Source: Glandiceps talaboti (taxonomy: Eukaryota > Hemichordata > Enteropneusta > Spengelidae). From it: DNA of 64,000 nt. The stretch spans positions 18,536,984 to 18,600,983 of the forward strand of contig NC_135550.1 of assembly GCF_964340395.1 (NCBI RefSeq), given 5' to 3'. Every line of letters begins with the position of its first letter. The first letter of the stretch is position 1. Under the pieces are notes generated by a model that was given only the letters and a program-made list of their open reading frames with translations, ran no database searches and was not told the DNA's origin. The position numbers and the translations under genes were made by a program. Positions 5,780 to 58,100 of this stretch are shown here, piece after piece.

Positions 5780-8700
5780 CTGTGTAGTAAACATTCAGGT
5801 ACTTGAAATTATTAAATTGTCTATCAAAAGTCACATTCACATACTATTATGTATACTGATGTGAGCTTATAAGATTATGAACTTGGGTGAAAATAATGTA
5901 AGAGAACCAAGTGATGTGTAAATGCTGGTATACCATACTCGGATATTTGCATAATTACTTGTGGTGCTTTCTTTGGCTGTACTTGGTTATCAAGTGAAAA
6001 TGTAGCTGAAAATGCTATAAGAACTTGTGCAAATATCATAAGTAACTACACTAGCACTTATGTGTCATAGGATTCTACCTATGTTTATCCAAAACAACAA
6101 GTTTCATATCAAAAAATAGAAATGTGCATTCACTAGATTTTGTGTACATCAAACCATTGTGCACTCATTCTCTATTTGCATACTGGTGTGCAAAAATGTC
6201 AGTATTGCATTGCAGTGAAATACCGATAGCATACACACACACACTGATACAAGTATTCAACTGTACATAATCATGTATAACACTTTGATTAAATATCATT
6301 ACAAAATACTCTTGTGGCTTTTTAGTTCAGTTGATGGCCGAAAATGGAATTTATTTCATGTTTAATTGTGATCCATCACCTGAGTTTATCATTCATTAGA
6401 CATTACATGACTTTGAAAGGCTCATTAATTCTAGCCCCCTGCAAACCTTGAGTTTTGTTGTATTTGTGTTTTTAAATGTACAACTTTAATCTCCATTTGT
6501 GACTGTATGTTTTTAAAATAGTCTGCAAAATTGATCTGATATGAAAGTGAGGTATGTTTGGCAAAGTTGTCACAATTCGCTACCATAACAGTTTACTGCA
6601 AAAAGTGAAATTCTGTTGCACTTTTATCGGTTGACGACAGTAAAGTGTGAAATTTGATTGCACTGTTTCATAAATGTAATGCTGAACTTGGATTAAAATC
6701 ACAAACATATCAAAAATTCATAAATTTGGCAAACATTCACCACAAACTTTGTCTTTAATAATTCAAAATAATTCATAATAATAAGTGTTATGAGATACCA
6801 GTGATCAAATATCTGACCCTACCTGTCTAGTAATCTGTCAGGCAATCCAATAGGGTCGACAAAAGATCTCTCCAAGTACATCAGTTTATCATTAATACCA
6901 CGAACTTCAAAAGGACTGTATCAGTAAAAATGTGGAGAAAAGACGTGTGTCAGTCATAAGTAATAGATTCTACAAAGCTGATGGAAAGTTATCCAAAGAA
7001 GCACTAGAAACTTTTAAAACTTGTAACATTTCCTACAAAAATATCTCAAATCAAAGACAAACTGTACATCTTTGTATTTTCTCATTTACAGAAAAATCAA
7101 AACAAAATAAGTTAATAACCACTGTGATAAGAAGAATTAAAATGATTAACCTTTTAAAATACGTAGAGTTTTAGCACAAGGCCTAGAATTTTTGCAATGT
7201 TGTGGTGACTATTTGATTTGACCTATCACCTTTCAACTTACAGCTCACAACATTCCTAATGATACCAATACAGTGGCTCCCCATCCCATCATACTATCGC
7301 CACAACGGTGGCAGTTTTCAATGAGGCCGCAACTGTGATATTGAAATTCATATTTAACTTACTCATCTACATTTGATTCCACACTCTCAATGTAGGCATG
7401 GAAATCATTGGCAGCACTTTCAAATTCATCCAATGCATTGTAAAAATCATCTGTAAATGTAAACATGGTGAGAGGCATTACAATGTGTACTACTACATAC
7501 TTAGCTTGAAGTCAATCTACACCAGTTATAGGTCAACCAGATAGCTGAAGTAATACCTCTATCACACATGACATTATACAGATACCCACCTTGAAGTCAT
7601 TTTTACAAGAAATGTCACAAGAGGGCACCCCGCATGATGAAATATGAGGGATAAAATTACACAGCTGCATGCAGTACATAAAGTGGTCAACAAAATATGA
7701 CTATTGAAACTAACTCCATGAATTCCTACAAACTATGATCTGAAACAAAGTTGGCAGAATGTTTGGGCTTGTCAAGGATGCCATCAACTTTTACTGTCAA
7801 ACATTATGAAATGATTTTTTTCAAAGCAGGCCATAGTACTCACTATCATGGCTCTCACAAATGCAGTTGAATGATGCATTCGTTACAAGTAAATAATTAT
7901 TCTCTAGGGTCAAGTTGGTTCTAAACAGTTAACTTACAGAAGTTCTCCATGACATGTAATACAATCAAACCAATGTGAAACAACTCGATTTTCCTAAAAG
8001 CAACTTTTACACTGATTTCTTTACTAAGAAATGCCCCAAACACCATATTTTTATAAAGTTTTACAGTGCAAATGTCAAGGTTTTTAAATTTATATCAAAT
8101 TGCTTGAAATTTCATAAGATTCAATGGTGGAAATGTTGATGATATGAAAGGAACAACAATCCTTACAGGAGGAATTCAATTCATAAAAAGGTTTGCTGTC
8201 CTCACCAAATTTGATATTACGTTCATTCATTTCATCTTCATAACTGTCTTTTATACCATCCATAGATTGCTTCATTTTCTTGCCATAGTCTTCACAATTG
8301 AAGGGCAGGAAGAGAGAATCTGCAAATGTTCTAGCCATCTCGCCCCACACTTGTGACACAACCAGGTGGTAGGTGAAGTCTGGATCCAGGGTATTTTCCA
8401 TCAGATGGAACGTTTCATACATGGAGTGATATAATGGATAGCTAGAAATCCCTAGAGCCTGAAAATCAGAAAACAATAGTCATACGGTGTTATTTTAATA
8501 GTGAATTGTTGTTTATAGTCATAACATAGATCTATAGATGATACACCTATTGCATAGTCACTGATTTCATACCTACCTGATCATAGTCATAACGTAGATC
8601 CATAGATGACACACCCAATGTATTCATAAATGGTGCATAGTCACTTCCAGAGCCAAGATTACCAATACTGTTTATAGCAAAAAGATGACAAAATATAATT

Positions 8701-9611
8701 TACAAAGATTTTACCAGACATTCAAGAAAGTTCATGGCATAGACACCACACTTGTTTACCTATCATGCACTTCCTAAAGTCAAGTCTTTGTTGAACACAT
8801 AGTCCTAAACATTTTTTCTGACCAGGTCTGCTTGAAATTGGCCAATCCATCTCAGCAGTGTACATAGAGACTATGATAATTAATATTTTTGGCCTTGAAG
8901 GTATAGGTCAAAGTCAAAGGTCAAGGTCTCATTAGAAAGACTTTTAAATGAGGTCACTATCTATATAAGCTTCCATAGTCAGTGGGCAAAATATGAAGTT
9001 TTACAACACTCTATGCCTATTTGATCTGAAGATGAAGGTCAAGGTCAAAGTATCATATTAGAAAACTTGTTAATGATAACATGGGTGTCTAAACATGAAT
9101 ACGGTAGCTATCTACTAAGCTTGCGATGTAAAGGGCAAAATGTTACTTTTTACAACAAATATGGCCACTATTCAACAATTACTGAAAAGGACATGAAACA
9201 AAGTAATGTACATATGCAGACTATTAGCACCTGACATTTGCTAAAGGTTTGGTTGGAATTAACCTATGCATGTTTAAGATACAGGTTGAAATGCACACAT
9301 GGACACACAGGACCAAACATAATAGCCTCGGACTTTGTCCATTTGAGGCTTGGTATATATTAATGTCTGACATTGTGTTATAATTCAAAACTTGAACTTC
9401 ATATAAAACATCAACACATACTGTGTTTCAAATGTAACACAGTACAATGCTTATAGCAAAATACTCACTATGGTACTGCTTCACCTTCTTTGGGCACTTT
9501 TTCCAACCAATTCTGATAAACTGTTTTGGTCATGTCATTTGGATCTTTGATCTGAATACAATATAAGACATATTTAATTTTAGTTATGTTACAATTAATT
9601 GAAAATAATGG

Positions 9612-9694
<83 letters not shown>

Positions 9695-12557
9695 GTGTGT
9701 TGTGTGTTGTGTGTGTGTGTGTCATGTGCGGCTGAGGTTGTGTGTGAGGGGTGCTGTATTTGTGTGTCATGTTGGGTTGTGGTTGTGTGTGAGGGGGGTG
9801 GCTGTATGTATGTATGATGTGGGGTTGAGGTGGTGAGGGTGTATCAAGTGGGGTTGAGGTGTGTGTGTTGGGGAGGTGGCTTTTGGTGTGCATGTTTGTG
9901 TCATGTGGGGTTGAGGTTGTATGCATGTGTGGAGGCTATATATGTGTGTGTCATGTGGGTTGAGTGCGTGTCACAGCATTGAGGGTATGTGTGTGTATGT
10001 GTGGGAAGAGGTGGCTGTATGTGTTTTGGTTGGCTTATATATTTTCAGTCTCAATCAAAGACTTACCTTCTTGGTAACATCGTAGATAACCTGGTATAAG
10101 CTTGGTGATGACTTGGCTCTAAACGCATGGTTTCCTTGTACAGAAATATCCACATTTAGGTATACCACTGCTTTCTTACTCAGGGTTTTCATGTTTTCCT
10201 AAATTAAAAATTATACAAATCACTCTCACAGAGAAATGAGTATTCCACTAAACTTAAGGGGTACATGTAGAATGAGACTTGAATACTTCAACCCATTCAG
10301 TAAGTTAAGGGGTAGATGTAGAAAGAGACTTGAATACCTCAACCCATTCAGTAAGTTAAGGGGTAGATGTAGAAAGAGACTTGCATACCTCAACCCATTC
10401 AGTAAGTTAAGGGGTACATGTAGAAAGAGACTTGAATACCTCAACCCATTCAGTAAGTTAAGGGGTACAAATAGAATGAGACTCAAATACCTCAACCCAT
10501 TCAGTAAGTTAAGGGGTACAAATAGAATGAGACTCAAATACCTCAACCCATTCAGTAAGTTAAGGGGTACAAATAGAATGAGACTCAAATACCTCAACCC
10601 ATTCAGTAAGTTAAGGGGTACAAATAGAATGAGACTCAAATACCTCAACCCATTCAGTAAGTTAAGGGGTACAAATAGAATGAGACTCAAATACCTCAAC
10701 CCATTCAGTAAGTTAAGGGGTACAAATAGAATGAGACTCAAATACCTCAACCCATTCAGTGGATCCTATCAGACCATATTCCTCTGCACCCCAACTGCAG
10801 AATACAATTGTACGTCTTGGTCGCCAGTCTGAAAAATCACAGACGATTGATAGTGATTTGTTATTTATATAACTTTTAATAAACATTTTAATTCATTATT
10901 GTTTTATTCAGCCTTTACTACTACAACATGGTAATAAGTTGAACACACTCCCCACTATTTTCTAAAAGTACATGGTCTGATGTCATAGCCTTTCTGACTT
11001 TGCCATCTACTATAAATATGATACACAACTTGTCAAATTTGTAATCTCTGTGAAGTGGGAATACTCGAATATCACATACATCTAGAATAAACAATGACCT
11101 TTTGGTAATTTTGAGTGGGACAGCTATAAACACAAACATGCCACTATAACATCAGTATATCATGAAACACCTTTCTCAATCTCTGTTTGTCTTCCTATCC
11201 ATTACTGATAAGACTTTGGCAGCAAGGGGTTCAATGGTTATCACCCACTGTATAAACTTTAAAACTTGTCAAGATTACCAGTATAGGATTGTTAATCTTT
11301 ATACATGTCAAACTCTGTGTCAACATTTTTAACAGCTAAAAGTATAAGATTTCAGCAGTAAGGAGTTGGTTATCACCCACTGCACAAACTTTAACATTTT
11401 TCAAGATTTATACCACTGGTAGAGGATTGCTAATCCTGTGTATCACAGTGTCAGATCACTGTGTCAACATTTCAACAACTAAAGGGTATAAATACCCAAT
11501 ACAGTGTAAAACCAAACATGCTCAGCTTAACACTAGACCTTTACAACTCTACACTTATGGTAATATGCCAAATTCTGACAGACTTCTGATGATTAATTGA
11601 CAACAACATTCATCATTTTATCCAGACAGATTGTACAACGCTGGAAGAAAAGACCCAAAGAAATGCAGACACTCACTATGTTTGGTGATCAGTTCTTGAA
11701 ATGCTCTGGCCAGCTCCAACATACAAGCTGTTCCACTGGATGGATCCACAGAACCAAACACCCAGGCATCACGATGATTGCCTATTATCACATAACGATC
11801 TGTCAATCATGTAAAGATTGGAGAATATGTTAGTGATCTTAGAGCGACTCGTAGTGACAAGAGTCCCTTAGGTCACTCATATTTTCCTTGGCTGAACGAA
11901 GAAAAATATTGGGGAATGATATCTGTAGCCATTATTTCTGTATCAATGAATGAAATGGTACTACTATTAACAATTACACACAATACACAACATTATAGGG
12001 TTAGGGTATCGGTTGATTTCAACATGGAAGTATAACCCACACAGTTCCATGTTTTAGACTACCTATAATGTATCAGTTTTAGGGTGTTATGATGAGACTC
12101 AAATACAGAACGGTTTACTCCTTACCTGGTTCTAGACTACCTTTAATATAGCCTACAGTAGTGTAGGTATAGTTCCTCTGATTCTTGTTATTCACTTCCA
12201 GTTTCACAGTTCTATCAAGGAAATGAGAAATTACAAGTCACCTTATATAGCTTGACAAAGTTCTAAGCACTTTGATTGACAATTTATCAATTAAGTCATT
12301 CTGTCAGATCATATTGACTGTAAGTCAATATAATAAATAATTAATTAATTTTTGAAAACAGAACTATAACTTCATAAACACTGTATACCTGTTATCCTTC
12401 ATGTCAGGTCCAATATTGTAGGTTATATCCAAATTTCCTTGCCAACTATTAGGGGCTTTCACTCCATCCATTTGTCTGTTATCAAAGAAATGTGGTTTGA
12501 AATGAACTTTAACATAGACAAACCAAAATAAAACTTCCTGTGTGGATGATTCAACAG

Positions 12558-12597
<40 letters not shown>

Positions 12598-12710
12598 CAG
12601 ACATACAGACAGACGGACGGACGGACGGACATATGTACGTACAGAAAGACACAGACAGACACAGACATACAGACAGACGGACGGACGGATGGACATATGT
12701 ACGTACAGAA

Positions 12711-12775
<65 letters not shown>

Positions 12776-15124
12776 CACACACACACAGACAGACACACAC
12801 AGACAGACAGTGCAAAATCTAACAATTTTATAAAAACCAGTAATACCTACTAGATGTTTTTAGGCAAATGTGAGCGACTATTATGGGGATTTGTTTGAAC
12901 AGAATGACTATTGACAAAACCTTAATTCATGTGACATTGACTTTCTGGCTGCAAAAAGACAAATTTGGAGAAAATATAATAATCATTGTATCTGTGCAAG
13001 TGACATAAAATTGTTATGACTGACAATTTTCAATAGTTTCAATCATATTTCAAGCACTGCAGCATTTCTTTGTTCAAACACATTCAATGTGACTTGCACA
13101 TGATTCATACACTGAAATGAATTCTAATAATGTGCAAATATTTTTAGTGATATTATATATGCCAATATTTCTCTTCATATTTTCAGGCATTGAATAATTA
13201 TGATTTCATATTTTTCTAACTTTAATAATGTGGAACTAAATCATGCCCTAGTATGGGAGTACAATCACCAAGGTGACTGCCACCAACAGATACAGATATG
13301 GCCCTGACTCAGTATTTTAGAATAGCAGCTGGCCCTGAACTAGAATAACAATTGTTACATATACAAAGAGTGAGGGCCACAATAGTTGAGTACTGTTTCA
13401 TTTCACAGTTTTATTAGAAAAGTTGGTGGCATTCTCATCAGTGAAAGCATTCTCCTAACTTAAACTTGAAATAAACTGTAGAAACAGCATAAGAACTCAC
13501 TTTAGTAGTTGCATTGCATCATCATATCCAATTGGATGTACTGGGATATGTGGTAAGCCTGTTATGCTTTCTTCATCCTCTCGGAAAGCACTATCTATTA
13601 ATTTAAAACCGGAGTGACAAATTAAAAAAAAGAAGTAGTGTTGATGACATTTGAAACACAAATTCATATAGTATGCAATTTTTTTTAGAGGGTTGACATT
13701 ATAAATCGAAAATCAATAGGACAATATAATGTAGAATTGAGTTTGGACTTCCTCCAACCACGAGCAGGACTAGACTGTAAGCTGTGGCACCTTGTATGTT
13801 GATTTGCCGGTATCGTAGTCTTAAGCATATACTTAAAGGCCAGAGATGCAATCCTATTTTCTCACATTACTAACTGTAATCTTATCAGTGGAACATACAA
13901 GATTATTCTTTTGTTACCGACCAACTTCTTTCATATTTATGATAATTTTTTATTATTTTGTTATTAAAAGCCCACTTACAAAAAGGATTAAAATTTACGT
14001 GTGAAAAACAGTTGTCTGAAAAACTATAGAAAAATGGTGGTCCAAAACAAAACAATAATCCCATTGGATCCTTACAGCTCCATTGATAAGATAACACGTA
14101 TGCAAGAACCTGGGATTGAAACCCTGGCCTTTTAAAGGTGAACAAAGGTGAGGCTGATTTTGTCGTAACTGCATTCCTTTCAACTTAAGGAACCAAGCCA
14201 TATCATTTTCACCAATCCTACATTATATGACCCTCTCTAATATAGGGTTATACTAATAGGCAAAACTGGCTTAAAAGATGCCTGCTTTATACTTTGGCAA
14301 GGCTTTTATGGGAAATAAGCAGAGTTTTGAGATTCTCCTCTGTTCCAACAGCTGGCCTCAGCATCATGTAGCCAATGTTTCACGAGGTGTGAAGCACCTA
14401 CCTTTTTTTTTGTTTATTTCCCATAATGCCTTGTCCCAATGTCCAATAGACCTTTTCTAAGCCAGATCTGCCAATCTTTAATAAGATCAAATTAGCCGTT
14501 CTCTTATTCCCCTTAATAGTAAACAATGTTCCCTAAGCAGTAAAGTATGGGAATGCAAAGGAACAGAAGACAGAATATCTATACCCTTTGCACTATAATC
14601 ACATGAAATATAAAATGTTAATAATTTACCAAGGGAAGGGTAGGCAGGAGTTAGAGGATCTCCATTTGACAACCACAATGTTCCGCGTTGTACACCAGTT
14701 CCTGGTAGCCACCATTCCTTTGGATATACTTCAGTTGTGTCCTCAGTTGCGTAGTCTTTAGGATCCGAGTATAGTATCAAACCTGCAGCTCCAAATATCT
14801 CTGCATGATGAGCCTAAGAAAAATAGCACCAATGGAGTTGTAGCAAAACTGTATCTCTTATTTTTTTCCAAATGTTTATCTGCATTTACACACTGATCCA
14901 GTTCTGTTGTTACCTATATGCAATGTACACTATCATTTGACTGGTGCTAGGGGCGGTATCTTAGTTACTGAGTGACTATGTCTCAATATTTTCTGAAAGT
15001 TTATCCACATGCCTATTTATCCCTGTTGCTATCTTTGCAATATAATTTATTCCCCCCCCCCCCCCCCCTTTGCCCACTGGTCATATTGCTCCCTTGACCT
15101 TGACGGCAATTGCTCAGACAGTTT

Positions 15125-15174
<50 letters not shown>

Positions 15175-18100
15175 TTAGGTGCCTTAAAAATCTCCTTTAC
15201 TATTATTACAATATATTCCCTTGACCCAGTAAAAGAGAACAACCATGTCAGGTACCTGTACATAGTCGTGACATGGTTGTACATTTAGTAAGGCAAGGGT
15301 AAACATACTCCCCCAATACTTGTTCTTTGAGAGCATGTGAGAGTGACAATTTCCTGTATAAGATACAGTACCCCACAAAATTCTCTCAGATTTGCATCTT
15401 GGGATATTTGCTTACTTAATACTCTCCTGTATCAGCAATATTTCTGAATGTTTTAAACATCAAAATTATTATTTGAATACATACATTGCATGTGATCAGA
15501 TTGCCAAGAAACAGTGAGTTGAAACTGCAGGTTCTTTATTCATTGTTTAGAGGCGGTCACTTCATGCACTTTATCATTTGTAAATGAGTGTGTACAGATA
15601 GAAGTAGCCGAAAATGATTTATTACATTATGGCACTTTATCAGATTCACAGGAATTTTTACAAGAAGTACAATATTTGATCAAGAACTGGTTTTAAAAAA
15701 TGTAAAAACAACTGCTACATTCTATTTACTTTTGTAGGGCTGTAAAAAAAATAATTGTTGACAAGTTAAACAAACAGGTATGTATGGTACTTGGCAATGT
15801 TTAGACTGTAGTATAAACTGTCATTGGTTCCGGGCTTATCAGCCTGCTAAAATATAAGGATAGAAAGGCGGAGGTAAAGGAGATGCAGAGAAATATGAAG
15901 ATATCTTCGTATTGCACCCAAATTTAAAATTAGCTCACCAAAGCTTTTGCCAGGTATCCACCAACTGAGACTGAACTTTTGCAGAGATGAACTTTCATCA
16001 TACTAATAAAGAAGATGACTTTTGAATTTAAAAAAAAAAAAAAATTGAACCTACCGACCGACCCATAGTTGCCATGAAAAAGTAATGAGACACATAAAAA
16101 AACATAGGTTCACCCTAATTATCATCGGTAATTCTATTTAATACCATAAATATTCTTACCTTGTCTCCTCTGAAGATCTTCCCATACCTGGCAATCACTA
16201 TCTTACCAGTCACATCTACACTTAGATTTCTTTCAAGGAATTGGAAATCTTCTATTCTTGCATAATTCACATAGACAAGTTGTCCCTACAATAAATGGAA
16301 CAACTGAATGTACTCTGCATTGGCAATCAAAATCAAAGAAGTTGAGAAGTAATTTTGTACATCCCAAAAAATGACTTCTGGATACCAACAATTGTTGTTT
16401 TTTTGTGCAAAAAAAGCCACCAATAGCACTGTAGCACAACTGTACAGCTTATTTTCATTTTCAAAATGTTTATATCCACATGCCTACCCAGTAATTTTTT
16501 TTTTTTACCAAAAATCACATATTTGACCCAAATCACACACCTGTGGTGTGATCATTTTCATGTGTACAATTCCCATTTACACATTCTGAGTACTGTCCCC
16601 ACCTAAATGCTAGGGCAATCAGTCAAACAGTTTTTGACACAGACACAGACACAGACACAGACACAGACACAGACACAGACACAGACACAGACACAGACAG
16701 ACACAGACACAGACACAGACACAGACAGACATAGCCACAGACACATAGACAGGAGACAGACAGAGACAGAGACAGAGACACAAACAGAGACAGATACAGA
16801 TACAGATACAGATACAGATACAGATACAGAGACAGAGACAGATACAGATACAGATACAGGTACAGATACAGACACAGATACAGACACATTTTTTTTATCA
16901 TGCCTATTGCACAACTGAACCACAGTTCAGTTGTGCTAAAACATACCCACATTTCATCATTGGCCTGTATAACACACTATTGCATTGAACCATGTGTGAA
17001 TGGAGTCACACAAATACACATTTTACATGGTCATAGCACTACTGAACTTGTGACAAGGTCAGTTGTGATAAAAATAGGTTGCAAGGTGGGTTTGACACAT
17101 ATATAGAACTGACATAGCACTTTCTGTAATTTTTATGTATTCTGTATGGTACTTACCATATGTATACATCATTTTTATAACTATTTTCTGCACCTTACCC
17201 AATCAAGTACTGTCTTTGATGTACTGTTTGGCCTTTTCTGAGTGTGGTCTACTTTTCCTTTATTTTTGTGCTTAACTTGTTTTGGGCCCCTAGGTAGATT
17301 AGGCTGGTCCTAACAGGGTTACCCGTTTGTTGATGTGTATTTTAAAGCTTTTTGATAATAAAAGTCATTATCATTATTATTATAACCAAAATTTCTTTTA
17401 TATTCAATGAAAAAAAAAAGAACTAACCTTAACAGTGCCATTTGCTGCATATGCATTGAACGGTGGTACAATATCAGTTCTGTTTTCTATATCAGTCAAA
17501 GGTTTTTCATAGGCTTTGGACGTAAACTCTACATCACCATTTGAACTTAAAAGATATGCCTAGAGGAGGTAAAAATACACATACACATACATATATGTAC
17601 CAGTGATTACTTGCATTGGTAGATGCGTATATCATGCCATCAGTCGTTGCAGTACTGTGAACTTCCAAAGCATTATTGTTTCCCTGTACCAGAACAAGCT
17701 GAAGGCACATCTCAAAGTTACAATAAACCAGCAGTATTCATATCAAGTTTAACATTTTTAAATAATACTCTTTCTTTCTTTCAATTTTTTTTTAAACATA
17801 AGCTTATTAGTACACAGTAGATATGACCATTCTAGCATTTAATCAATTTGTAAACAATGTTGTCAGCTGTTAAAAATAGCAGTGAATGATTGATATCTAG
17901 ATGATGTTTTTATGGCATCTATATTGACACTGCAGCCATTGAATGATTTACTTGCTTTGCACTGATATTATTGTTTACAGATTGATTACAATAATCTAGT
18001 GGGCTCCCCAGTCCCCATCTGACCCCATTCAAAGTCAAGATTTAAATTAAATTGATTTAATTCACAACAAAGCCACTTTCTGTCAACACTAAAAATTGAA

Positions 18101-20434
18101 AGATGGATTTGATTCGAATTACAATAGCACATCTGTGCCTACATATGTGGTGTTGTTATAATACACCAGTAACAGTTAAAGACAATCATGAATGTGTACC
18201 ATTCTATCAGTAAACAGAGTTAGGGGATCCAGGGCTCATGATGTGGTGTATATACTTTTTAGTTACTGACACTAATATTACACTGTACAGTGCTTTATAT
18301 GAACAAGCAAATGCATCAGTGTTTTTTTTTTTTGCAGGCTGTATGAAGACGATTGTGGCTGGCTGCATTTTACTTGGGTGTAGACTGAAACTGTGAAAGA
18401 ATCATGGTTGTTGGTGCTCTAAAGTTTGTCTGCTGAAATTAGTAGTGTACAAATCTTAAAATCTACGGTGTTATAGATTGTACTTATTCATGCAAGAAGT
18501 AATATCATAACATAATTCTTGCAGAGCAACTAACACTTAAAACTGATGTAGGTTTGTACTCACATGATTGGTGTTGTTGAGATCTGGATAGGATAATAGT
18601 ACATCATATGGTATCACCTCTATGTGATCCAATCCATACTTAGTAAACTCATTTTTCACATAGTATGCATTGTCTCTATCAGCAGTGGTACCAGCAAGAT
18701 GTGGTTTACTTGTCAAATACCTGTCACAAGTAGTAAGCCATTGTAAGTTGTGTTTGTGCATACATTTTGATATTATTTCCACTTGTCTCCCCCCCCCCCC
18801 CCCCCCCCGAGATATGAATCAGAATACAATAAAATATTGATAATATTGACATATGAAAGGGGTAAAATAACACAGGTTTCTAGGATCGCATAAGTCCATA
18901 CACTGCGGTGTATATATAATGGTGATTTCAAAATATTTTGACTCATAGTTTGAGCATGGGCAGCCGCAATGCCAATGCTGTAGCACATCTTTGCGACTCT
19001 GATTGCTACATAGCGTATGATTGCTACATAGCGTGCGATTGCTACATAGCGTACGATTGCTATAGCAATTGTACACTATATAGCAATCGTACACTATGTA
19101 TACATAGTGTATGATTGCTATATAGCCTGTACGATTGCTAAATAGCATATGATTGCTACATAGCTTACGACTGCTACATAGCATACGAGTGCTACATAGC
19201 ATACAAGTATGTGCTACATAATGTACGAGTGCTATAGCATATGAGTGCTACATAGTATACAACTGCTACAGTGTACGATTGCTAGATAGCATACAATTGC
19301 TACATAGTGTACAATTGCTACATAGTGTACAATTGCTACAGTGTACGATTGCTACATAGCATACAATTCCTACATAGTGTACAATTGCTACATAGTGTAC
19401 GATTGTTATATAGCATACGATTGATACATAGTGCACGACTGCTACATTGTGCACGATTGCTACATAGTGTATGATTGCTATATAGTGTACAATTGCTACA
19501 TAGAAAACAAAAAAACAAAAGGAAAAATGTTGAGTAACGTACACAAAATAAAATATAAAAAAGTATTGTAAATAAAAACAAAGCTACAATTATTGCAGCT
19601 AGCTACATTGCACATAATGCATTACTACATACTAGCATATGATTACTATGCGTTTTTACGCATATTGTGTACAATTGCTACATCCATCCTATCATGCATG
19701 GGGATTTTTGCTCTTGTCATTCCCCTAGACCACACCTGGCATTTCGTTAGCAGCCATTTGTAGAAACCTTATATTAGGTCACAATTGACATTTATACACA
19801 GCAGGGAAAAAGTTGAAACCCACTAAAAATTTGCACCTAATTTCTGGCCAGGCTTCATTATAAAAGTAAATGTCTGCTAGCAAAATGCTTGGCATGGCAA
19901 GGGAATGTAGAAGCATGACTGTCATTTGCTACATAGTGTGTGATTCATATATGACTTACAAAGTTTGCATTCTAATACAATTACACGGAATTACCTCAAA
20001 TGCTCCTCAATCTTACTCTTTTGCAAAATTTCTAATAATTTCTCTGTAATCCCTTCATCTTCCCCTTTCAATGCATCTGACCAACTCTTGTACGACTCTG
20101 GTGTCTCGGTGGAGTCTGACTTTGATGATGAAGGCGCTGCTAAGAAACCAATGAGTAGTCCAAGACCTAGCATAAGTAAGCCAAAAACACCACAAGCAAT
20201 CCAATAGTAACGCATGGGATATCGTCCCGTTCCCATAGTAACAGTACTAGCACTTTCTTTGGGGTATTGAATAAGTTGGAGTTCTTGACAGAAACTGTTT
20301 GGTGGATGATCACCGTCAAGTCTTTCTTCCTCTGTGAGCAGGGGAACTCTGTCGCCGCTCTCATTCGGTGCTGAGAGTGGGAGTGGCGGTGATAAATCTT
20401 GGCTTTCCATCATTAGGTGATAATCAGACGCCAT
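5572..20434 (-). CDS. NAALADL1: NAALADL1-like M28B zinc peptidase (glutamate carboxypeptidase II family), 17 exons
   Basis: Type II membrane exopeptidase of the GCPII/FOLH1-NAALAD2-NAALADL1 family. Exons in coding order: 20434-19995, 18720-18564, 17559-17428, 16285-16160, 14813-14630, 13594-13501, 12475-12389, 12211-12126, 11799-11677, 10828-10746, 10198-10067, 9551-9469, 8667-8577, 8458-8206, 7450-7363, 6915-6823, 5779-5572. All junctions are GT-AG and the frame closes to 2,460 nt (819 aa; human GCPII is 750). Domains: cytosolic tail 1-75, membrane helix about 77-99, PA and M28 domains, then the TfR-like dimerisation domain from about 610. The di-zinc set is complete: H444, D454, E493, D521 and H617, with E492 as general base. 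The segments NVDISV, SWGAEE and GSGSDYAPF favour NAALADL1 over FOLH1. Subfamily is assigned from remembered human sequences; family membership is near certain. Confidence 0.95.
8206..8458 (-). CDS. NAALADL1: Peptidase exon 14: last zinc histidine and start of the dimerisation domain
   Basis: Encodes residues 607-690. [11 protein letters not shown] supplies zinc ligand H617 (GCPII H553) and the adjacent Tyr. The rest is the helical TfR-like dimer domain. Donor TTTG|GTGAGG leaves phase 1. Confidence 0.94.
8515..8568 (-). repeat. Decayed duplicate of the end of peptidase exon 13 inside its intron
   Basis: Sense GGTGTATCATCTATAGATC and TGTTATGACTAT in the intron match GGTGTGTCATCTATGGATC and CGTTATGACTAT of exon 13 at an offset of 68 bp. 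An internal deletion of about 15 bp and several substitutions are present. The donor is lost in the copy. Confidence 0.8.
8577..8667 (-). CDS. NAALADL1: Peptidase exon 13: S1-pocket segment
   Basis: Encodes Y576-Q606 with GSGSDYAPF and SSMDLRYDY. Relative to remembered human GCPII, N519 is Ser and R534 is Asp, while the R536 position keeps Arg. Donor CAG|GTAGGT lies at 8575-8576. A decayed partial copy of this exon lies just inside the following intron (8515-8568). Confidence 0.93.
9614..10020. repeat. (TG)n microsatellite grading into a TG-rich degenerate repeat
   Basis: Perfect TG to about 9692, then TGTTG and GTCATGTGGGGTTGAGG variants up to 10020. It begins about 60 bp from the acceptor of peptidase exon 12; on the sense strand this is a CA tract just upstream of that 3' splice site. 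Confidence 0.95.
10067..10198 (-). CDS. NAALADL1: Peptidase exon 11: third zinc-ligand aspartate
   Basis: Exactly 44 codons (residues 505-548), phase 0 at both ends. [10 protein letters not shown] carries D521, equivalent to GCPII D453. An Arg aligned with GCPII R463 of the S1 arginine patch is kept in [12 protein letters not shown]. Confidence 0.93.
10247..10765 (-). repeat. 51-bp minisatellite built from exon 10 end plus its 5' splice site, 10 copies
   Basis: Sense-strand unit: 18 bases of exon 10 (ACTGAATGGGTTGAG at its end), donor GTATTTGAGTCTC, then about 20 bases of intron. Donor dinucleotides recur every 51 bp, from the genuine 10744-10745 down to 10285-10286. The six units nearest the exon are virtually identical and the four distal ones are diverged, so the array is freshest at the exon. 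A downstream donor would add 51 nt containing an in-frame TAA. Confidence 0.95.
10746..10828 (-). CDS. NAALADL1: Peptidase exon 10: catalytic glutamates, beside a junction minisatellite
   Basis: Encodes N477-E504, including [13 protein letters not shown], which holds the general base E492 and zinc ligand E493. The exon ends GTTGAG|GTATTTGAG in phase 0. Its last 18 bases plus this donor form part of the 51-bp unit repeated through 10247-10765, so the true donor is the first of ten identical or near-identical donors. It is easily missed because it is short and merges into the repeat. Confidence 0.92.
11222..11500. repeat. Tandem duplication of a ~132-bp block
   Basis: GGTTATCACCCACTG...AAACTTTAA..CTT, GAGGATTG.TAATC and CTGTGTCAACATTT occur twice at an offset of about 132 bp. 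Non-exonic, in peptidase intron 9. Confidence 0.75.
11677..11799 (-). CDS. NAALADL1: Peptidase exon 9: first zinc-ligand block
   Basis: Encodes D436-H476. The motif [19 protein letters not shown] carries H444 and bridging D454, equivalent to human GCPII H377 and D387. The exon enters and leaves in phase 1 (donor CATA|GTGAGT). The wording VDPSSGTA matches remembered NAALADL1 rather than FOLH1. Confidence 0.95.
11838..11930. repeat. Dispersed repeat shared with 32345-32440
   Basis: Both loci carry GTAGTGACAA.AG.CCCTTAGGTCAC and TATTTTCCTTGGCTG in the same order. One lies in the peptidase gene and one in phosphorylase intron 11. Family unknown. Confidence 0.6.
12555..12812. repeat. (CAGA)n / (CGGA) compound microsatellite
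   Basis: ACAG tetramers with internal GGAC runs and a duplicated block (about 12600-12655 and 12660-12715). It lies 80 bp upstream, in sense, of peptidase exon 7. Confidence 0.95.
14000..14140 (-). mobile_element. SINE-like repeat, third copy
   Basis: Reverse complement begins GGCCAGGGTTTCAATCCCAG, then GTTCTTGCATACGTGTTATC and AGACAACTGTTTTTCAC, ending TTTTAATCC. It lies in peptidase intron 5. Confidence 0.5.
14266..14465. mobile_element. 200-bp MITE-like element with ~55-bp imperfect inverted ends
   Basis: Outer ends CTGGCTTA and TAAGCCAG. The arms share AAGGC.TTTATGGGAAATAA in inverse orientation. It lies in peptidase intron 5. No clear target duplication. Confidence 0.7.
15127..15172. 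repeat. (CA)n microsatellite; C17 run 60 bp before it
   Basis: CA dinucleotide run in peptidase intron 4; a homopolymer C tract lies at about 15053-15068. Confidence 0.95.
16634..16890. repeat. (ACAGAC)n / (ACAGAT)n microsatellite
   Basis: Hexamer repeat grading from GACACA to GAGACA to GATACA, in peptidase intron 3. Confidence 0.95.
18990..19502. repeat. Short-period array of GATTGCTACATAGTGTAC-type words
   Basis: Roughly 18-20 bp units, about 26 copies, drifting between GATTGCTACATAGCGTAC and AATTGCTACATAGTGTAC, with one inverted stretch near 19062-19090. It lies in peptidase intron 1. The reverse strand looks open ([14 protein letters not shown]), a repeat artefact. Confidence 0.9.
19995..20434 (-). 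CDS. NAALADL1: Peptidase exon 1: start codon, long cytosolic tail and membrane anchor
   Basis: Encodes residues 1-146 plus two bases of codon 147, ending at donor AG|GTAATT. ATG at 20434 is the first Met of the open frame. A second possible start, a Met-Met pair at residues 8-9, would barely change the product. The tail before the hydrophobic helix (about residues 77-99, [10 protein letters not shown] onward) is about 75 residues; as remembered, human NAALADL1 has only a few and GCPII about 19. The tail contains D28-R-V-P-L-L33, which fits the acidic dileucine sorting pattern [DE]xxxL[LI]. Basic residues before the helix and acidic ones after it fit type II topology, N-terminus in the cytosol. 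Confidence 0.93.
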
Positions 20435-20960
20435 TGGTTTATGGCAGATTACAAGTTATATGGTACACCGTATAAGTGTTTGTTCAATATCAAGTGACTT
20501 GTGTCTATCAATATTGACTTTATATGTTACACATTTCCATTGGGTGGTAATCCGAGAAAAGGCGACGAGTTTCTTGTTGCATTAGTGTGGAGATTGTCAA
20601 CAAATAACATTATAATGATTAATACCAATATCGTCGATTATCGATCGTGATCATCACATCAATCAAAGAAAATCCCCAAATGCAACAAATGACGGACCAA
20701 CTTTCGAAAGTTATTCTATTTCAATCCAGTATCACAATAAAATTTGATAGGAAGAGAGAAAAAAATGTAAGTTTACCATATATTCTGAAGTCAATAATGA
20801 ATTTCGATATATAAATCAAGCCCGCTGACGACAAGCGAAGTACCCGGAAGTAGCATTGTGAACGTTGACTTGTGGGAACAAAAGTGTGTCGCATGGGTCC
20901 ACAGGGTGAAGGACAAATAATACACGGTGTATTACCATTAGTCGGATCAGTAGATGTTTA
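20435..20960 (-). promoter_or_regulatory. Upstream region of the NAALADL1-like gene
   Basis: Contains an ETS-type CCGGAAGTA at 20844-20852 and several CpGs in an otherwise AT-rich area (20821-20920), a plausible TATA-less core promoter about 400 bp from the ATG. No transcript start can be assigned from sequence. Confidence 0.35.
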
Positions 20961-21268
20961 CACTCACGGCATAATCATAATGCAAATAGTGAGTTTGTTC
21001 TAGCATGGAAGTATGGGTTCTACTTCCATGGTTCTAGCAAGCTATTAATTAATGCAAAGCTGATAAACTCAGATAAGACATTGATATCAGGTAGGAAATA
21101 TAAAAAAACAGTGAGAGGAAACAGTATTTAAAACTTCATTTGAAATATACAGAAAATAATATTAAAATCCGGAAAATCGCGAGTACAAAACTGATTATTT
21201 GTCCTTTACCCTGGGATGGGTCATGTAGGGACCGATCAGTTTCTTCGACCTGCGGGGGCCGGGCACAG

Positions 21269-21480
21269 CACAGGGGCGTGTAATATTTCATAGATTGTTG
21301 TTTTCCAGGTCTACAGACTAAATATAACAACCTTTTGATTAATACATATATATTCCTACATGTAAGGAGAAGAGAGATTGATACATTTGTAGCAGCAAGA
21401 TTCGTACGATATTTTCATAAGAAAACGGCATTCTAAGCAATAAGAAAACAACAATCTATGAAATATTACACGCCCCTGTG
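21269..21480. repeat. 37-bp perfect inverted repeat with 138-bp spacer
   Basis: 21269-21305 is the exact reverse complement of 21444-21480 (outer ends CACAGGGGCGTGTAATATTT). It lies about 0.85-1 kb upstream of the peptidase start codon. Possibly a young foldback element. Confidence 0.85.
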
Positions 21481-23002
21481 GGGCACAGGCACTTGTTTCA
21501 AAAAATTGACAAATTTATCCTGGCCAGCGATTTCTAATTAGTGCAATGGAACATAGGAAAACATGTTTAACCTGATGGAGAATTGTAAAAAAAAAATTCT
21601 CTCTTTCTTTCTTTTATTATTTCTTTGAAGTTATTAGTTGCTATTTTAACATGATATTTTGTATGTATTTGACTTCTATGTAAATGCTGCTCCTAATGTT
21701 TTTAGTGAGCCCCTGATATAAAAGGGATGCAGAAAAGAAAGAAAGAAAGAAAGAAAGAAAGAAATAGTGGATGCGGAAACTGACATCAGACAATACAAGT
21801 TTGTAATGTGTACTAGTCTAGACTATATACATAAAATCTGAATGATACATGTCAGCCTGGAATCTATGGGGAAGGGGGTTTTGAATTCATTATTTCCACA
21901 TCACGAGTGGGGAAATCAAATTTTAAAATCCTCTATCCACCTGGATTCTAGGCTAGGTACATGACTGTATGTACCCACACAATGATACACGCATTATATG
22001 AACTCAAAATGACGTCATTTTTTTACCTTTAACCTGCTTATGATATTTTTTACATTCAAAACTTTTAAAATATTTTGATGAATAGATAATAATTCTTGAG
22101 ATATAGTATGTAAGCTTTAAATATGACTTTTAAATGACGTATACTGGGTGCTTAGTATAGGCATTACTAGTATTAGCATTAAGCCTACCTACAGCCTTTT
22201 TACGGCACCGTCCAAGCCGCACCGCTGAGCTGAGAGGGGAAAACCCATACCAATAGCAATACATAGCATTTCGGTTTTCTCGCGATATAACAAAATGCCC
22301 AAGGGTTCGCGAGTGGCACCCGTCATGTCAGGTACATGTTATCAGGACACGCCTCCAAATCTTCTTGGGCTAGGGGGGGGGGGGGAGAGACCCTCTAGGA
22401 TGTCTTAATCACCCCCAGATGGATGGGGGACATTCAACCAACCAGCAATCAGATGCATCAACTTTTCACTATCATGATGTTATTAAGTTTAGAACATTTT
22501 AACCCCTATGTATAAATACTATTTGCTTATTTTAGATATATTGTCTTTTAAAGCTATGAAATTATTGCCAGGGTAGTCTAGACTAAAATTGTAGACTCTT
22601 ACAAAAAAACTATCCAACTCTACCCCTACCAATGATACAACAATGATGCCGTTAACTTTGAAAAATTATAATTCAACCATATACATGTATAAAGAAGAGT
22701 GTCTAATGTCTTGTCTCGTAAAGCTTGGAAATTATTTCCTGAGAGGGTCTGCATAGCCTAAAAATTGATTTAATAGTAAAAAAAATCACAGCTTCTAGAG
22801 AGAGAGAACCTGGTTAAGTATATGGACTTAAAATCACAAGGCTTCTCTTTCACTCATTCCCAGAGCAGATAAGGAAAAGATATAATTACACCTGTAGTAT
22901 ACTTGTAATGGAACACCACAGAGCAAAACAGAATATGCATTTTACCACTGACTAGCCAACGTGTAGGACTGACGCTGCTACACTGATTATTCCGTTTATC
23001 CT

Positions 23003-23378
23003 ATTAAGGCATAATAAAAAAAATATCGTGTGGTTCCGAATACGCTCAATTTTAGAATAGGTGGGGTAGGTAGATTTTTTATTTTAGTAAATATTTTTAT
23101 TTATTTTTTTCTGTGTGAGTGTCTAGTTCAGGTTTTTCATCAATTTCCAAATGGTCTTTGTGTTGTTAATTTCTTCCTATCCGATGTACAGCCATTACAG
23201 ATTTAGAGTATTTTTTAAGTTGGTGGCAGTTTCTGCATCCACTATTTCTTGTGAGACTTCACAATTTTTGCGATTTTATTATTTTTTTCTCGAATACGTA
23301 AAAAAAGTTCATGGTCGGCAGTGAAAAGCTAGGTGGGGTCGGGTAACTGGAACCAAACAATTATTTTTTTTAGGCCTA
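23003..23378 (-). mobile_element. MITE-like repeat, copy A (~370 bp)
   Basis: Ends are inverted: AAGGC..TAAAAAAAA.AT.GTGTGGTTCC on the left and GGAACCAAACAATT..TTTTTTTAGGCC on the right. The interior includes AGGTGGGGTAGGTAGATTTTT and AAAAAAAGTTCATGGTCGGC. Reverse orientation of copy B at 62805-63173. Confidence 0.8.
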
Positions 23379-23844
23379 AACTGAAAATGTCAGTTAGGAT
23401 AGCGGAAAAGCAAAAGCGGTAATGCTACACGTCTATAGGTAGGCTATAGGCTAGCCTGGCCTAACACTGATCTCTCCTAACTCCTACAGTGATCCTATAG
23501 GGCGCCCTCCTTTACGTATCAAGAATTTAGTAGAATGTATAACAGTTTATATTATAGATCTTGGAGAGAGTTCCCTCCCACATCTATGATATTATGTTCA
23601 GAATATATCACAAGTCATGTTAAACTTTGTCAATCTTAAATAAAACTGACATCCTATTGTAATAGATAACATATGTAGTGTTACGAGGGGAATGTTCCGT
23701 CCTTCCCGAAATATAATTGGCGTCAATGGTGTCACAATAATCAACAAGAGCAGACCGCAACATTAAGCTCCCAGTCGACATCTGAACAATTTATCTTGTT
23801 TTCAGACATACATACACAGGGCACTCAGGCTTGGTTAGTTACGA

Positions 23845-23925
23845 AACAAACAGACAAACAAACAAACAAGCAAAACAAACAAGCAAGCAAACAAACAAAC
23901 AAACAAACAAACAAGTAAAATAAAT
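23845..23925. repeat. (AAAC)n microsatellite
   Basis: Interrupted CAAA tetramers. A (GAAA)n tract also lies at about 21733-21765, and a (CA)n tract at 54228-54295. Confidence 0.93.
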
Positions 23926-26900: not shown

Positions 26901-27056
26901 ATGATCCATGGACCCTTCTATCAGTGGTCGAGTTCATGTTAAGTTTGATAGGTGGTGTATTTTTTTTTTATATAACTCATTACAATGCTGTGCACAGGAT
27001 GGGAGATGTCTGTCTATATCATTTACACTATCTTACACAAGTATCTGAGAACGACT

Positions 27057-52830
<25,774 letters not shown>

Positions 52831-53050
52831 CTCAACGACCGTTTTTAGGTGCTAAAATACCGAACAAGTTGGACTACTCTAACCCTTACTCAGCAGTCTG
52901 ATCTGTCAGCGATGGCCCACGAAGACTCGGGTCACAACACATGCGCAATGATCATCGCTGGATCCCTGGGAATTTCAGTGCTTGCATGCGCGTGTACCCT
53001 AAAAAGTATATTTTCTCCCCGGAATTTCTCTCTCCGGGCAATTTTTCATG
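52831..53050 (-). promoter_or_regulatory. Upstream region of glycogen phosphorylase
   Basis: GC content rises over exon 1 and its upstream flank. Two NRF-1-like cores are present: CATGCGCA at 52940-52947 and GCATGCGC at 52984-52991. No TATA box is obvious. Confidence 0.4.
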
Positions 53051-54261
53051 AATTTGTTTTAGCATGTTGGACACTGCTGTTTTAGTACTATTTATTTTGA
53101 TAACACAATATACAATTTGGCAGTTCAGGTGTTATTTTTTTCTATTTTGAGTCCCAGAAATAACTTAGTTTTGAAAAGAACACCCATTTGGTATCCTATT
53201 ACAAACAAAACTTGTGAACACGTTTTTCATCCATTGTTATAAACAGCAAAGAGGAGAGTAACTACTGCAAATTCCCAGAGGTATTAATGTGATTTGTGAC
53301 TATTGTCCAAAAATGATCATTCCAGTGTGATTTATGTCTGTTTGATTCCTGGAAATGCTAGTGATATGTATCTAGACTGTGAGTGAAGGTATAAATTGTA
53401 ATGATACTGTATAGGAACTAGACTGTATCTACAGAGATTATTACATAATATACGTAAGGTAATATGGTCACAACAATATGGGGTATCACATACTGTTTAA
53501 TAATGAATCCCAACCATAAACCCAGTATAGTGGATACAATGTATCAGGTCTTGTTGCAATATTCAGGGCAATATTGAAGTTGTGAAGTGTTTAAGTTTAA
53601 TTACCAACATTTTCTTCAGTCAACTTCACATATTATTTGCTCCCCACTCTCATCACTACCCAGGGGATCAGTCATATGAGTTTTAAGATAATATCTAAAT
53701 GTTTCATATTGGCATAATTTGTATCAACATCATATGATATTCTTAATACTTAGGCCTACAATGTGCATCTCAGTGAATTAAAGTAGCCATATAGATGAGG
53801 ATTAAGTATATATTTCAGATTTTTAATTTATAAAACCATTTTTATTTTTATGGCTTCCTACTTGAAAAATCAATGTGAAACAACTTATGCCAAATCCTTG
53901 TTTGTAAAATGTTTGTTATTGTACGTACAATTACAAACTTTTTACACATTTTTTAGCATTTTGCAATGTATTGAGGTACATTTTACATTCATTTTTCAAG
54001 TAGGAGGCCACAATAAAATTGTTTTATAAGTTAAAAATCCAAAATAAATATCCAATCCTCATTCACTTTGATTTTATCTCTCGGTTACAGCCTAAGACGT
54101 TTTGACTCGTTAGATATCTTTGATAAGGCCCCATGATCGATTGATCATTGTTGAGACTTGTATGATTTTTTATCAAGTATCAGATATAATTTGTTTTGAG
54201 AAAATTGTTTAGACACATGCGTGCATGCATACACACACATACACTGATACACACATGGACT

Positions 54262-54297
<36 letters not shown>

Positions 54298-55158
54298 GAC
54301 ACACAAAAGCAGTTGCAAACTCAAAGGTCACTCTTGATCTCAGGACAATACATTTTTTGCTCCATAATTTTTATACGAGTTAATAGTAAACCGACTTGGC
54401 TTTCAAAAGTGATTTGGCCACCTTTTTCTGCAAACTCTTGCAGACTTCATTAAAGTCAGTCATTTCAGTTGAAAGACATTGTCCATTCATGCTGATATTT
54501 CTGTTATTTGACACATGCACACCTGTACATGTAAGTGCACAGGTTCAGTTACAACTACAACTACATGTACAAGAGTTGTAATTCTGTCATATGATATCCA
54601 TGCCTAACTAATACATTCACATCTCCCGCATATAAACAAAACTAAAATGGACAGCATGACTATTTCAATATAACATGTATCTTTATTACATATCAAAATG
54701 TCAGTTACAATCACTCCTACTGAAAGAATCAGTGGCTTAGGTATGTGAAGGTCAGATGAGACCAGACTCTGGATTATAAGCACAGTATTGACATATACCG
54801 TTGTAGACATTTGACTGTCAAATCAACATTGAGTCATGCACTTACATTATATGATTCACTGAATGCACTATATTGGAGCAAAGAACAATATTTGATGGAC
54901 AGTGTAATAACAATATGTTTACAAGTCATCCTAAAATGATTTTTTTAAAAAGACATCCTCCAAATCGACTTCACATCTATAACAGTTGACACAGTATCTT
55001 TTTTTTATGTTGCTTCTAAACAAATGGAAACTTCATCACACATACAACTTACAAGAATCTTTTTATCACTTGATTCTTAGTCTCTCTCCTTGTGTCAGGA
55101 AACGATTTCCTGTGTATGTATTTACATAGTCTTAATGTAGTAGCTTTGTTCTACATAC
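53051..55158. other. Intergenic region between phosphorylase 5' end and MRPS5 3' end
   Basis: Contains an imperfect inverted pair around 53840-53880 and 53995-54030 (TTTTTAATTTATAAAACCA versus GTTTTATAAGTTAAAAATCC), a (CA)n tract and, at the right, MRPS5 3' untranslated sequence. No gene recognised. Confidence 0.55.
54682..54687 (-). terminator. Possible MRPS5 poly(A) signal
   Basis: Minus-strand AATAAA about 470 bp past the MRPS5 stop. It is the first canonical hexamer I noticed downstream; position is plausible but unconfirmed. Confidence 0.35.
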
Positions 55159-58100
55159 TCAAAATACTAAGACACCATCTCTATCAAATCTAGTGTTCCT
55201 TGCAGTTTTAGGTTTCAACTCTTTCCATTCCAATGGCATATCTTTATCCCAGTCCTGTTCATCAATGTCATCTCGAACTCCTTCTTCAGGTGATGCAACA
55301 ACTTTAGGGAAAAAATCACATTCCTCTTTGAATTCCACTAGATGAAGCTGGTGTCTGTCAGCAATTTGTTGGTGTGTTTCCTAAAAAGTAAAATTTATCA
55401 AAATCATATAGTTATTATAAAAGAAAATGTCGGGGTTTTTTTTGTGTGTGTTTTGGTGAACAACATTCTAGTACATTTAATATATAACACACATGCTAAT
55501 CTTTCCATTTTTTGATCATGGTGAACTTCATAATGACAAAGTGAATCTAGTATCAATGTAGTAATGTACTCATGATATTTATAAGCATAACAAGATATCC
55601 GAGGTATGACAAGGACTGTCTATGGTACAAAAAATATGTACAAGTCCAGAGAAATGTCAAATGTGAAAGTACGGTACCTGTAGCAATATCTATGAACAAC
55701 ACCCATGAATCTGCCCACCAGTGGAAATATACAGATTGAAAGAGAAATTTTAAATACGTTCCTAAAAATTAGCCGCCAAAACATTACAGAGTAGCCGGTT
55801 GTTTTTGCTGGCTACTGGGCCTCATCTACATCCCTGCAAGTCAACTCAAGCTATAAACAACATCATAAGTTCAGACAAACTGTCATCTACTATGATTTGG
55901 AAACTTCATTTATAAATGTAACCATTTCTCCAGACATTTCTTTGGGAACATAAAATGTGTTTGATTCACACAGTGTTTTGGCAATCATTGCCTGTTTCTG
56001 CTGTAAAGAGCTTGGAGTACACTGTATTCACTTTCACAGTGAGGTACTATAAGACTAATGTTTGAAAACTTTGACATGAAAAATAGGCCTTAAAGCCTTG
56101 CTTTCTACAATAATAACAATAGAAGAAGATCCATATATGCTCATTTTATGAAAATAGTATTTAAGTAATTCTGTGAAAATATTCATTGACAAGCATGTTT
56201 ATTGGTGACACTATTTTGTGTGGCACTATGAAATAAGTATGCCCAAATACGCAGAATGTGAGGAGTGGTTGATTCATATACGTACCTGGCTGGCTAGCTA
56301 AACCTTGGAAGACTGACTGCATGGCAGATATTGAGAAGATTATGTCATAATACATACCTGGCTAGCTAAACCTTGGAAGACTGCATGGCAGATATTGAGA
56401 AGATTATGTCATAATACATACCTGGCTAGCTAAACCTTGGAAGACTGACTGCATGGCAGATATTGAGAAGATTATGTCATAATACATACCTGGCTAGCTA
56501 AACCTTGGAAGATTGCATGGCAGATATTGAGAGGATTATAGGAACCATACACTGTGGCATGTAGGTCTTTGATTCCAGCTAATTTACATACTTCTCTTAC
56601 AATACGATGACATTTCAAACCAAAACCTGCAATGTGAGAATTTCACATAAGTTTTGTTGTAAATGGATAAATATGCACACACAGACAGTAAATCTGTACA
56701 TCTGGATCATAAAATCAACCTACAGTATTCGTGTGATTTGTACTCTTTTATAACCCATACAAGTTGGTAGCCCAGTAATAAGAACCCAAGACATCAGACA
56801 GTTCTAGTTACCAACTACATTACCTTTATGCTGCTTCCTTATTCTTATCCTTGTAGCTTTAAACCTGGTTTCCACATCATGGTAAACTGTACAGGAAATA
56901 CACAACATATATTTATTGTATCATATCTTTTGTTAATATCACAGTTATCAATCCTAACAAAACTGATGGTTTTTAATGAACAATAAATATGTATAAGTTA
57001 TTTAAGTTATTGCTATCAGAACATGTAAAACTAATTCCAATATCTACCTCACCCTAAGGTATTGCTAGACTATGGTGAATACATGTGTACTAATATCTGT
57101 GACCATGCTGTTCACTCAATTTCTTGTCTATTTTAACAACTATTGCTATGCTCTCACAACTAATAGCAAACTGAGTTAAGCTATATCTGAAAGTGTGCTA
57201 TGCTGTAAACCTACCTGTATGGTTGTCATATCTTTCAAAGTAATGTAGATAGTGTGCTGCACTGTTCTTTGCCTTCCGTACAGCTGAGACGACATCCTCT
57301 GCTTTGCCAATAGCATAGCCTATAATGTAACAGAGAAGACATTATATCCATGGTTCTCCTACTTCATAATAGGTTTGTACTATGACAGAACCCCATGACG
57401 CACAAGTGCAAGTGTGGTGTACTCAGGGTATTTGCTGTGTTCTCTGCACCCATACTTTCATGAGTGTAGTGAGTGAAAGTGCAGCAGAAAACACTGCAAG
57501 CACAAGTACAAATACCTCTGAGCACCCACACTGGAACTCACGTGCCATGGGGTTCTGTTATTATTACATGTTTATCTGAAACAACAAATTTCCATAAAAA
57601 TCATACAGTGTGATCATGCGATTTCGTGTGTAGCAAAAGATCATGTCCTCATTTCCTCATTTGCATACAGATATGCAATAATGCTTTCGGTATTGCACTG
57701 CAGTGAAAATACCACTAGTATACATGCGTACCAGTGCAAGTAATCTCTGATACATATGTACAAGTACAACCACAGAAAACACCTGACGCACTTGCACAAA
57801 TACCCTGAGAATGTCACACTACTGGCATTTGTACATCACAGGGTTCTGATACAGTATAAGTTCATGACATGAACTTGATGTTAGAATATCACTGTCGTTT
57901 ATTTACTACATTGGTAGAGTTGTGCAACTGTACATATACGTTGTCATAAGGTAACAAATGACTTCTAACTGTACACAACTGAGAACACGAGATAGTTTCC
58001 CCCAAAAAAGTAATTCAGCTTTCTTCTTGTATACTTTATTTTTAATTCTAATACCAGTATTTAATTCTCAGTAACTGTAATAGCATTTTACCTCATGATA

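Follow-up and report, generated by a model that had tools for sequence, protein, structure and literature searches.

How do exon-intron junctions in several unrelated genes come to carry tandem copies of themselves? The question is raised by a stretch of 64,000 nucleotides of Glandiceps talaboti DNA (assembly GCF_964340395.1, contig NC_135550.1, positions 18,536,984 to 18,600,983; here called the window), in which three minus-strand genes have such duplications. The genes encode GCPII (NAALADase, peptidase M28), glycogen phosphorylase and MRPS5. The original prediction, made from the letters of the window alone, described at least six junctions with tandem copies that span or abut a splice site, five of the six being at donors, and suggested either a mutational bias toward junctions or retention of useful extra splice sites. 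We found that the recurrent duplication is real and that it also occurs outside the window, at 10 of 78 myosin exon matches. They are probably tandem duplications across splice junctions, known as "mirages" in lancelets, that are common through a richness of duplications near exons and are tolerated at junctions.

A BLAST self-scan of the window that was blind to genes, and from which microsatellites were filtered, gave 17 tandem clusters. Six of them contain a splice site, and these are exactly the six junction duplications that had been predicted. The splice site lies inside an aligned copy in five cases; at GCPII exon 13 it falls in the gap between two copies. As had been stated, five of the six are at donors, the sixth being the acceptor of phosphorylase exon 8, and the arrays of 4, 10 and 12 copies were reproduced at MRPS5, GCPII exon 10 and phosphorylase exon 14, respectively (Table 1). 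The claim that the genuine exon always lies sense-upstream does not hold for phosphorylase exon 8, whose genuine copy is the downstream one, as an acceptor requires. The duplication reported for MRPS5 exon 7 is present, but the exon is number 8 in our model. Likewise, the "about 40" junctions among which the six were counted correspond to the 41 introns of the three genes, but not to the splice sites of the window, which number 88 (48 exons in total). GT is present in 26 of 26 copies across the three arrays; splice signals are kept by most array copies, but not by all duplicates.

Chance similarity was rejected as the origin of these repeats: no near-diagonal match of at least 33 bits appeared in twelve first-order Markov resamplings of the window. 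A dispersed repeat captured at junctions was not seen either. The three array units match only their own arrays in the 325 kb examined, where two sequences (L001 and L003) overlap the phosphorylase array and hence count as that array.

The arrays may have grown by unequal exchange, which their variant patterns fit. In GCPII, the six exon-proximal copies are identical and the four distal copies are variant. In phosphorylase, copies 3-7 and 8-12 have the same variant pattern, that is, a repeated block of five units, and the two exon-proximal copies have variants of their own. Variable sites were compared between exon-derived and intron-derived parts (1/15 vs 8/36 in GCPII, 1/18 vs 2/19 in phosphorylase), but are too few to be informative. 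The same applies to microhomology at duplication ends: only four two-copy candidates are available, and one of these is really a large array mistaken for two copies.

In each of the three arrays, reading beyond the first donor runs into a stop in frame 5-10 codons later. Inner donors, if used, would therefore spoil the message, and the duplication would be harmless as long as the outermost donor is the one used. The conserved proteins fit this predicted use of the outermost site. Some copies also contain sequences that resemble acceptors. MRPS5 copies 2-4 (56290-56475) have an acceptor-like CATGCAG where the genuine exon has CATGCAA. These inner sites score 5.3-5.7, compared with a median of 8.9 for real acceptors, and a micro-exon of 23-27 nt arising from the copies is conceivable. 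The phosphorylase array has 14 faint acceptor-like sites, those printed scoring about 2, and the GCPII array has no acceptor-like site scoring above 2.

Our sample outside the window comes from one gene family, the myosins, in the same assembly (590 Mb, 47 contigs). A search with a hidden Markov model (HMM) of the myosin head, in which 65 of 175 candidates were scored, listed 78 exon matches, i.e., the best-matching part of the family, which we grouped into 18 gene places. All 78 were taken regardless of repeats, with 260 bp of flank on each side. A script predicted the splice edges, using splice-site matrices together with the HMM match, and edges near repeats were read by eye. The loci contain 23 clusters, of which 10 cross a junction and spare the exon and 12 lie in the flank only. 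The remaining one (L047) was excluded from the junction count, its HMM match spanning an intron that, by eye, contains the repeat. Seven crossing cases are at donors (L035, L049, L053, L064, L092, L097 and L103, the last included though only about 5 bp of exon is taken) and three at acceptors (L032, L044 and L082). Setting the edges by the HMM match instead gives a crossing count of 9, with 2 in the other count.

Junction duplications therefore affect 10 of 156 nominal myosin exon edges and 6 of 88 splice sites in the window, or about 6-7% in both. They occur at 7 of the 18 myosin gene places in addition to GCPII, phosphorylase and MRPS5, and so in several unrelated genes. Both junction types are hit, with 12 donors and 4 acceptors over the 16 cases (two-sided P = 0.08). 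In the ten myosin cases the splice dinucleotide is kept in 26 of 30 recognised copies, genuine ones included, a count limited to copies that match at least 11 of 16 bases. The splice signal is lost in the L092 copy and in two of the nine copies of L064.

We infer that these structures begin when a local event duplicates about 30-140 bp in which a splice site chances to lie. One copy, the outer one, would stay joined to the exon and leave the protein intact. The others, being intronic, could then degenerate freely, or unequal exchange could multiply them into a minisatellite. In a genome rich in short tandem duplications, more so near exons, junction duplications would be common. Those that cross a junction would be tolerated, in effect as neutral changes, because the mRNA is unchanged while the outermost site is used.

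Are junctions then hit more often than expected? The window was chosen for showing the pattern, and its figures have to be read accordingly. Its cluster density is 2.5 per 10 kb, twice the 1.24 found in 17 random regions. The original prediction had proposed a genome-wide comparison of the overlap of repeats and splice sites with random placement; within the window, the answer is divided. When whole clusters are placed at random, 5.4 of 17 are expected on a splice site and 6 are observed (P = 0.46); without four microsatellite-derived or widely spaced clusters, the expectation is 4.2 of 13, again against 6 (P = 0.17-0.21). We judged this null too generous, because only one founding unit of about 50 bp need touch the junction. 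Counting founding units, 1.7-2.2 of 16 are expected and 6 observed, with P = 0.0035 for units set by hand, 0.014 for measured periods, and 0.011 to 0.065 at other score cut-offs.

The exon-sparing myosin duplications are in excess as well. We used two sets of control segments matching the geometry of the myosin loci: 2000 drawn from 15 random regions (150 kb) and 1200 from noncoding DNA of the window. The random control left out L016 (19% GC) and L009 (G000:C1:3000001-3010000), in which about 7 kb consists of tandem or clustered repeats. Per 78 loci, the random regions predict 2.4 exon-sparing crossings and the noncoding DNA of the window 2.3; the 10 observed are about four times as many (P = 1e-4). 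However, flank-only duplications at the same loci number 12, against 2.5 and 3.9 expected (P = 7e-6 and 5e-4), which is three to five times expectation. The myosin ratio of junction to flank, 10:12, resembles the control ratios of 61:64 and 35:60 (Fisher P = 0.70 and 0.30). Since flanks are as enriched as junctions, the excess at myosin loci is one near exons in general. Median best-copy identity, entered by hand, is 88% for crossing and 91% for flank duplications; a detection bias between the two classes is possible but not obvious.

Several points weigh against this conclusion. Within 260 bp of exons, the window has a junction-to-flank ratio of 6:2, which is above the controls (Fisher P = 0.14 and 0.04). 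The pooled ratio is 16:14 (P = 0.40 relative to the random regions and 0.08 relative to noncoding DNA of the window), and these figures leave room for a modest junction-specific excess. The exon-sparing rule was adopted after a first count without it, because a control array that covers a whole pseudo-exon would destroy a real exon. Without the rule, 11 of 78 loci have crossings, against expectations of 5.5, 7.8 (all 17 regions) and 7.6 (P = 0.015, 0.15 and 0.10), and the crossing share, 11 of 23 clusters, is below the 66-73% of the controls. The surplus of donors over acceptors has no account if duplications are simply frequent near exons. Finally, the controls, 150 kb of random DNA and one window, were resampled with overlap, and the P values are rough.

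The explanation that fares best after the one we favour is a mutational bias that targets the exon-intron junctions themselves, which might arise, for instance, from DNA structures linked to transcription or splicing, or from the donor sequence. The founding-unit test, the 10 myosin crossings against 2.4 expected, the 6:2 ratio in the window and the 12:4 ratio of donors to acceptors all point toward it. By contrast, the equal enrichment of flank-only duplications beside the same myosin exons argues against such a bias, and it can be reasoned that constraint on the exon copy should keep a duplication recognisable for longer, so that counts would rise even if no bias existed. We therefore regard this suggestion of the original prediction as unlikely.

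Its other suggestion, that selection retains the copies since several U1 or U2AF sites help splicing, seems very unlikely to us. A hint in this direction is that three of the five duplicated window donors are among the eight weakest of 41 (ranks 6, 7 and 8 from the weakest), and the dinucleotide is kept in all copies of the window arrays and in most recognised myosin copies. However, the other two donors are strong (ranks 31 and 33). Moreover, the diverged duplicates at GCPII exon 13, phosphorylase exon 6 and L092 lost the inner donor, as neutral decay predicts, and use of an inner donor in the three arrays would run into a stop. Least credible is an assembly artefact: assemblers readily go wrong on tandem repeats, and GCPII has a run of six identical copies, but the arrays contain several distinct variant copies, they are shorter than 600 bp in an assembly whose size and small number of contigs suggest far longer reads, and the same anatomy recurs at the 7 myosin gene places.

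Duplications that are frequent near exons and tolerated at junctions thus remain our preferred explanation, and they have a precedent. The original prediction knew of no such pattern, but it is published for lancelets. According to excerpts of PMC3087553, "mirages" are minisatellite-like duplications of exon-intron boundaries in lancelet globin genes (BflGb6 and BflGb9), for which reverse-transcription PCR indicates regular splicing, and length instability and an intron-gain model are described; Adh3 and other loci are cited, as is a 2002 Nucleic Acids Research paper said to name mirages. Excerpts of PMC3902484 add a mirage in lancelet PGBD5 and cite TnC, and papers on retinol dehydrogenase and presenilin are cited for further lancelet loci. 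Among the literature matches listed, two papers use the term in this sense, both of them on lancelets, and there is no hemichordate case.

To the extent that these excerpts describe them, lancelet mirages share several properties with our cases. The units span a splice junction and measure tens to about 160 bp, donors and acceptors are hit in several unrelated genes, and AG or GT is kept in many, but not all, copies. Unlike the lancelet mirages, the present ones probably come from a hemichordate, and for them we have a control and a rate from two samples. For lancelets, regular splicing and unstable length have been reported, whereas our cases are known from the sequence of a single assembly.

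Intron gain has reportedly occurred by tandem duplication of an exonic AGGT segment (the Rogers model, with a case in potato RdRp, PMC4974935). There, too, a gene acquires additional splice sites through tandem duplication. The six window units differ in that they include an existing intron edge, and no new intron was seen. Myosin locus L053 (G000:C12:392984-393749) is closer to this kind of gain. Its tandem unit is derived from the exon, and the intron side of its donor (GTAAGATA) is copied exon sequence, so the donor seems to have been made by the duplication junction itself. Excerpts of PMC2812944 describe variable tandem repeats at exon-intron boundaries of human genes in segmental duplications. 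These likewise involve minisatellite expansion at boundaries, there with effects on splicing, but they are tied to recent paralogues and alternative introns, whereas the present cases are in conserved genes. The feature belongs to the mirage kind, and what is new, as far as our searches went, is a second phylum (probably the hemichordates), the rate in two samples and the control for nearby introns.

The window genes and duplications are listed in Table 1. Exons were placed by splice signals and open frames, and PDB homologues could be aligned with the conserved length of the GCPII, phosphorylase and MRPS5 proteins, affected junctions included. The start of COX16 exon 4 was placed about 2 bp too early, at a spot free of duplications.

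Table 1. Genes and junction-spanning duplications in the window (positions are those of the window)
Feature	Position	Strand	Remarks
GCPII (NAALADase, peptidase M28) coding region	5572..20434	minus	17 exons; splice signals and open frames, PDB homologue alignment
GCPII exon 13 donor, two copies	8515..8623	minus	intron copy 8515-8555 vs exon copy 8583-8623; second copy degenerate, donor GT lost
GCPII exon 13	8577..8667	minus	gene model and PDB homologue alignment
GCPII exon 10 donor array	10251..10760	minus	51 bp x 10; unit of 15 bp exon end, donor and 36 bp intron; GT 10/10
GCPII exon 10	10746..10828	minus	exon tail is the sense-first unit of the 10-copy array
Glycogen phosphorylase coding region	27057..52830	minus	18 exons; splice signals and open frames, PDB homologue alignment
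Phosphorylase exon 14 donor array	29366..29954	minus	50 bp x 12, last partial; unit of 18 bp exon end, donor and 32 bp intron; GT 12/12
Phosphorylase exon 14	29936..30083	minus	gene model and PDB homologue alignment
Phosphorylase exon 8	35220..35363	minus	gene model and PDB homologue alignment
Phosphorylase exon 8 acceptor, two copies	35309..35479	minus	95 bp; intron copy 35404-35479, genuine 35309-35383; 92% identical; AG kept in copy
Phosphorylase exon 6 donor, two copies	37668..37900	minus	about 136 bp, 71% identical; donor lost in intron copy
Phosphorylase exon 6	37882..37993	minus	gene model and PDB homologue alignment
MRPS5 coding region	55159..61056	minus	9 exons; splice signals and open frames, PDB homologue alignment
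MRPS5 exon 8 donor array	56290..56539	minus	64/68 bp x 4; unit of about 50 bp exon end, donor and about 14 bp intron; GT 4/4
MRPS5 exon 8	56490..56626	minus	gene model and PDB homologue alignment
COX16-like gene		plus	four exons; recognised by eye only

Other repeats and frames were noted as well. Further minisatellite arrays in the window (2237-2844, 19000-19952, 36045-36578 and 40672-41249) are intronic or intergenic and distant from splice sites. A dispersed repeat around GAACCCCATGAC / AAGTGCAAGTGT, perhaps a short transposon, was seen by eye to recur in introns (31100-31300, 43640-43810 and 57380-57560), and phosphorylase intron 1 contains a plus-strand open frame (44163-44414). Elsewhere, dense and degenerate GGTTTTGACC-like repeats occupy both strands at the start of contig G000:C46 (L105). 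There were no Rfam matches at gathering thresholds in the window or in L104-L107.

The host can also be judged from its mitochondrial genome, which is present in G000:C40 as a head-to-tail concatemer of 15,435-bp units with three COX1 matches. Around cox1, a tRNA finder placed trnN, a tRNA with a TCA anticodon, trnA and trnY, with trnS after cox1; the TCA tRNA, labelled SeC by the finder, was taken as trnW. Together with nad2, cox2 and atp6, recognised by eye near cox1, this partial gene order resembles that of vertebrates rather than that of echinoderms. Across the counted stretches of COX1 and COX2, AAA accounts for 0 of 7 lysine codons and AAG for 7, AGA and AGG are absent, and ATA occurs at positions that we take to be conserved isoleucines. 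According to excerpts of PMC2697986, echinoderms and hemichordates read ATA as isoleucine, and Balanoglossus lacks AAA and has almost the gene order of vertebrates. A hemichordate host is therefore likely from mitochondrial code and gene order.

With these data, a curiosity of lancelet genes becomes countable: in one genome, probably of another phylum, two samples each put the affected share of junctions at about 6-7%. As to controls, the lesson is that the unselected myosin sample does not single out junctions over exon-adjacent DNA. A bolder reading, which we hold to be doubtful, is that junction minisatellites are a standing, genome-wide feature of an ambulacrarian genome, affecting one in 15 junctions, shared with lancelets and possibly old in deuterostomes. 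They would be formed or kept more often at donors and would be a running source of donors and introns, as L053 and the acceptor-like MRPS5 sites suggest, and the outermost of up to 12 near-identical donors would be picked by exon definition alone. Loci that carry 10-12 near-identical donors are plausible raw material for intron gain, and they offer a natural way of testing how splicing chooses among equal sites.

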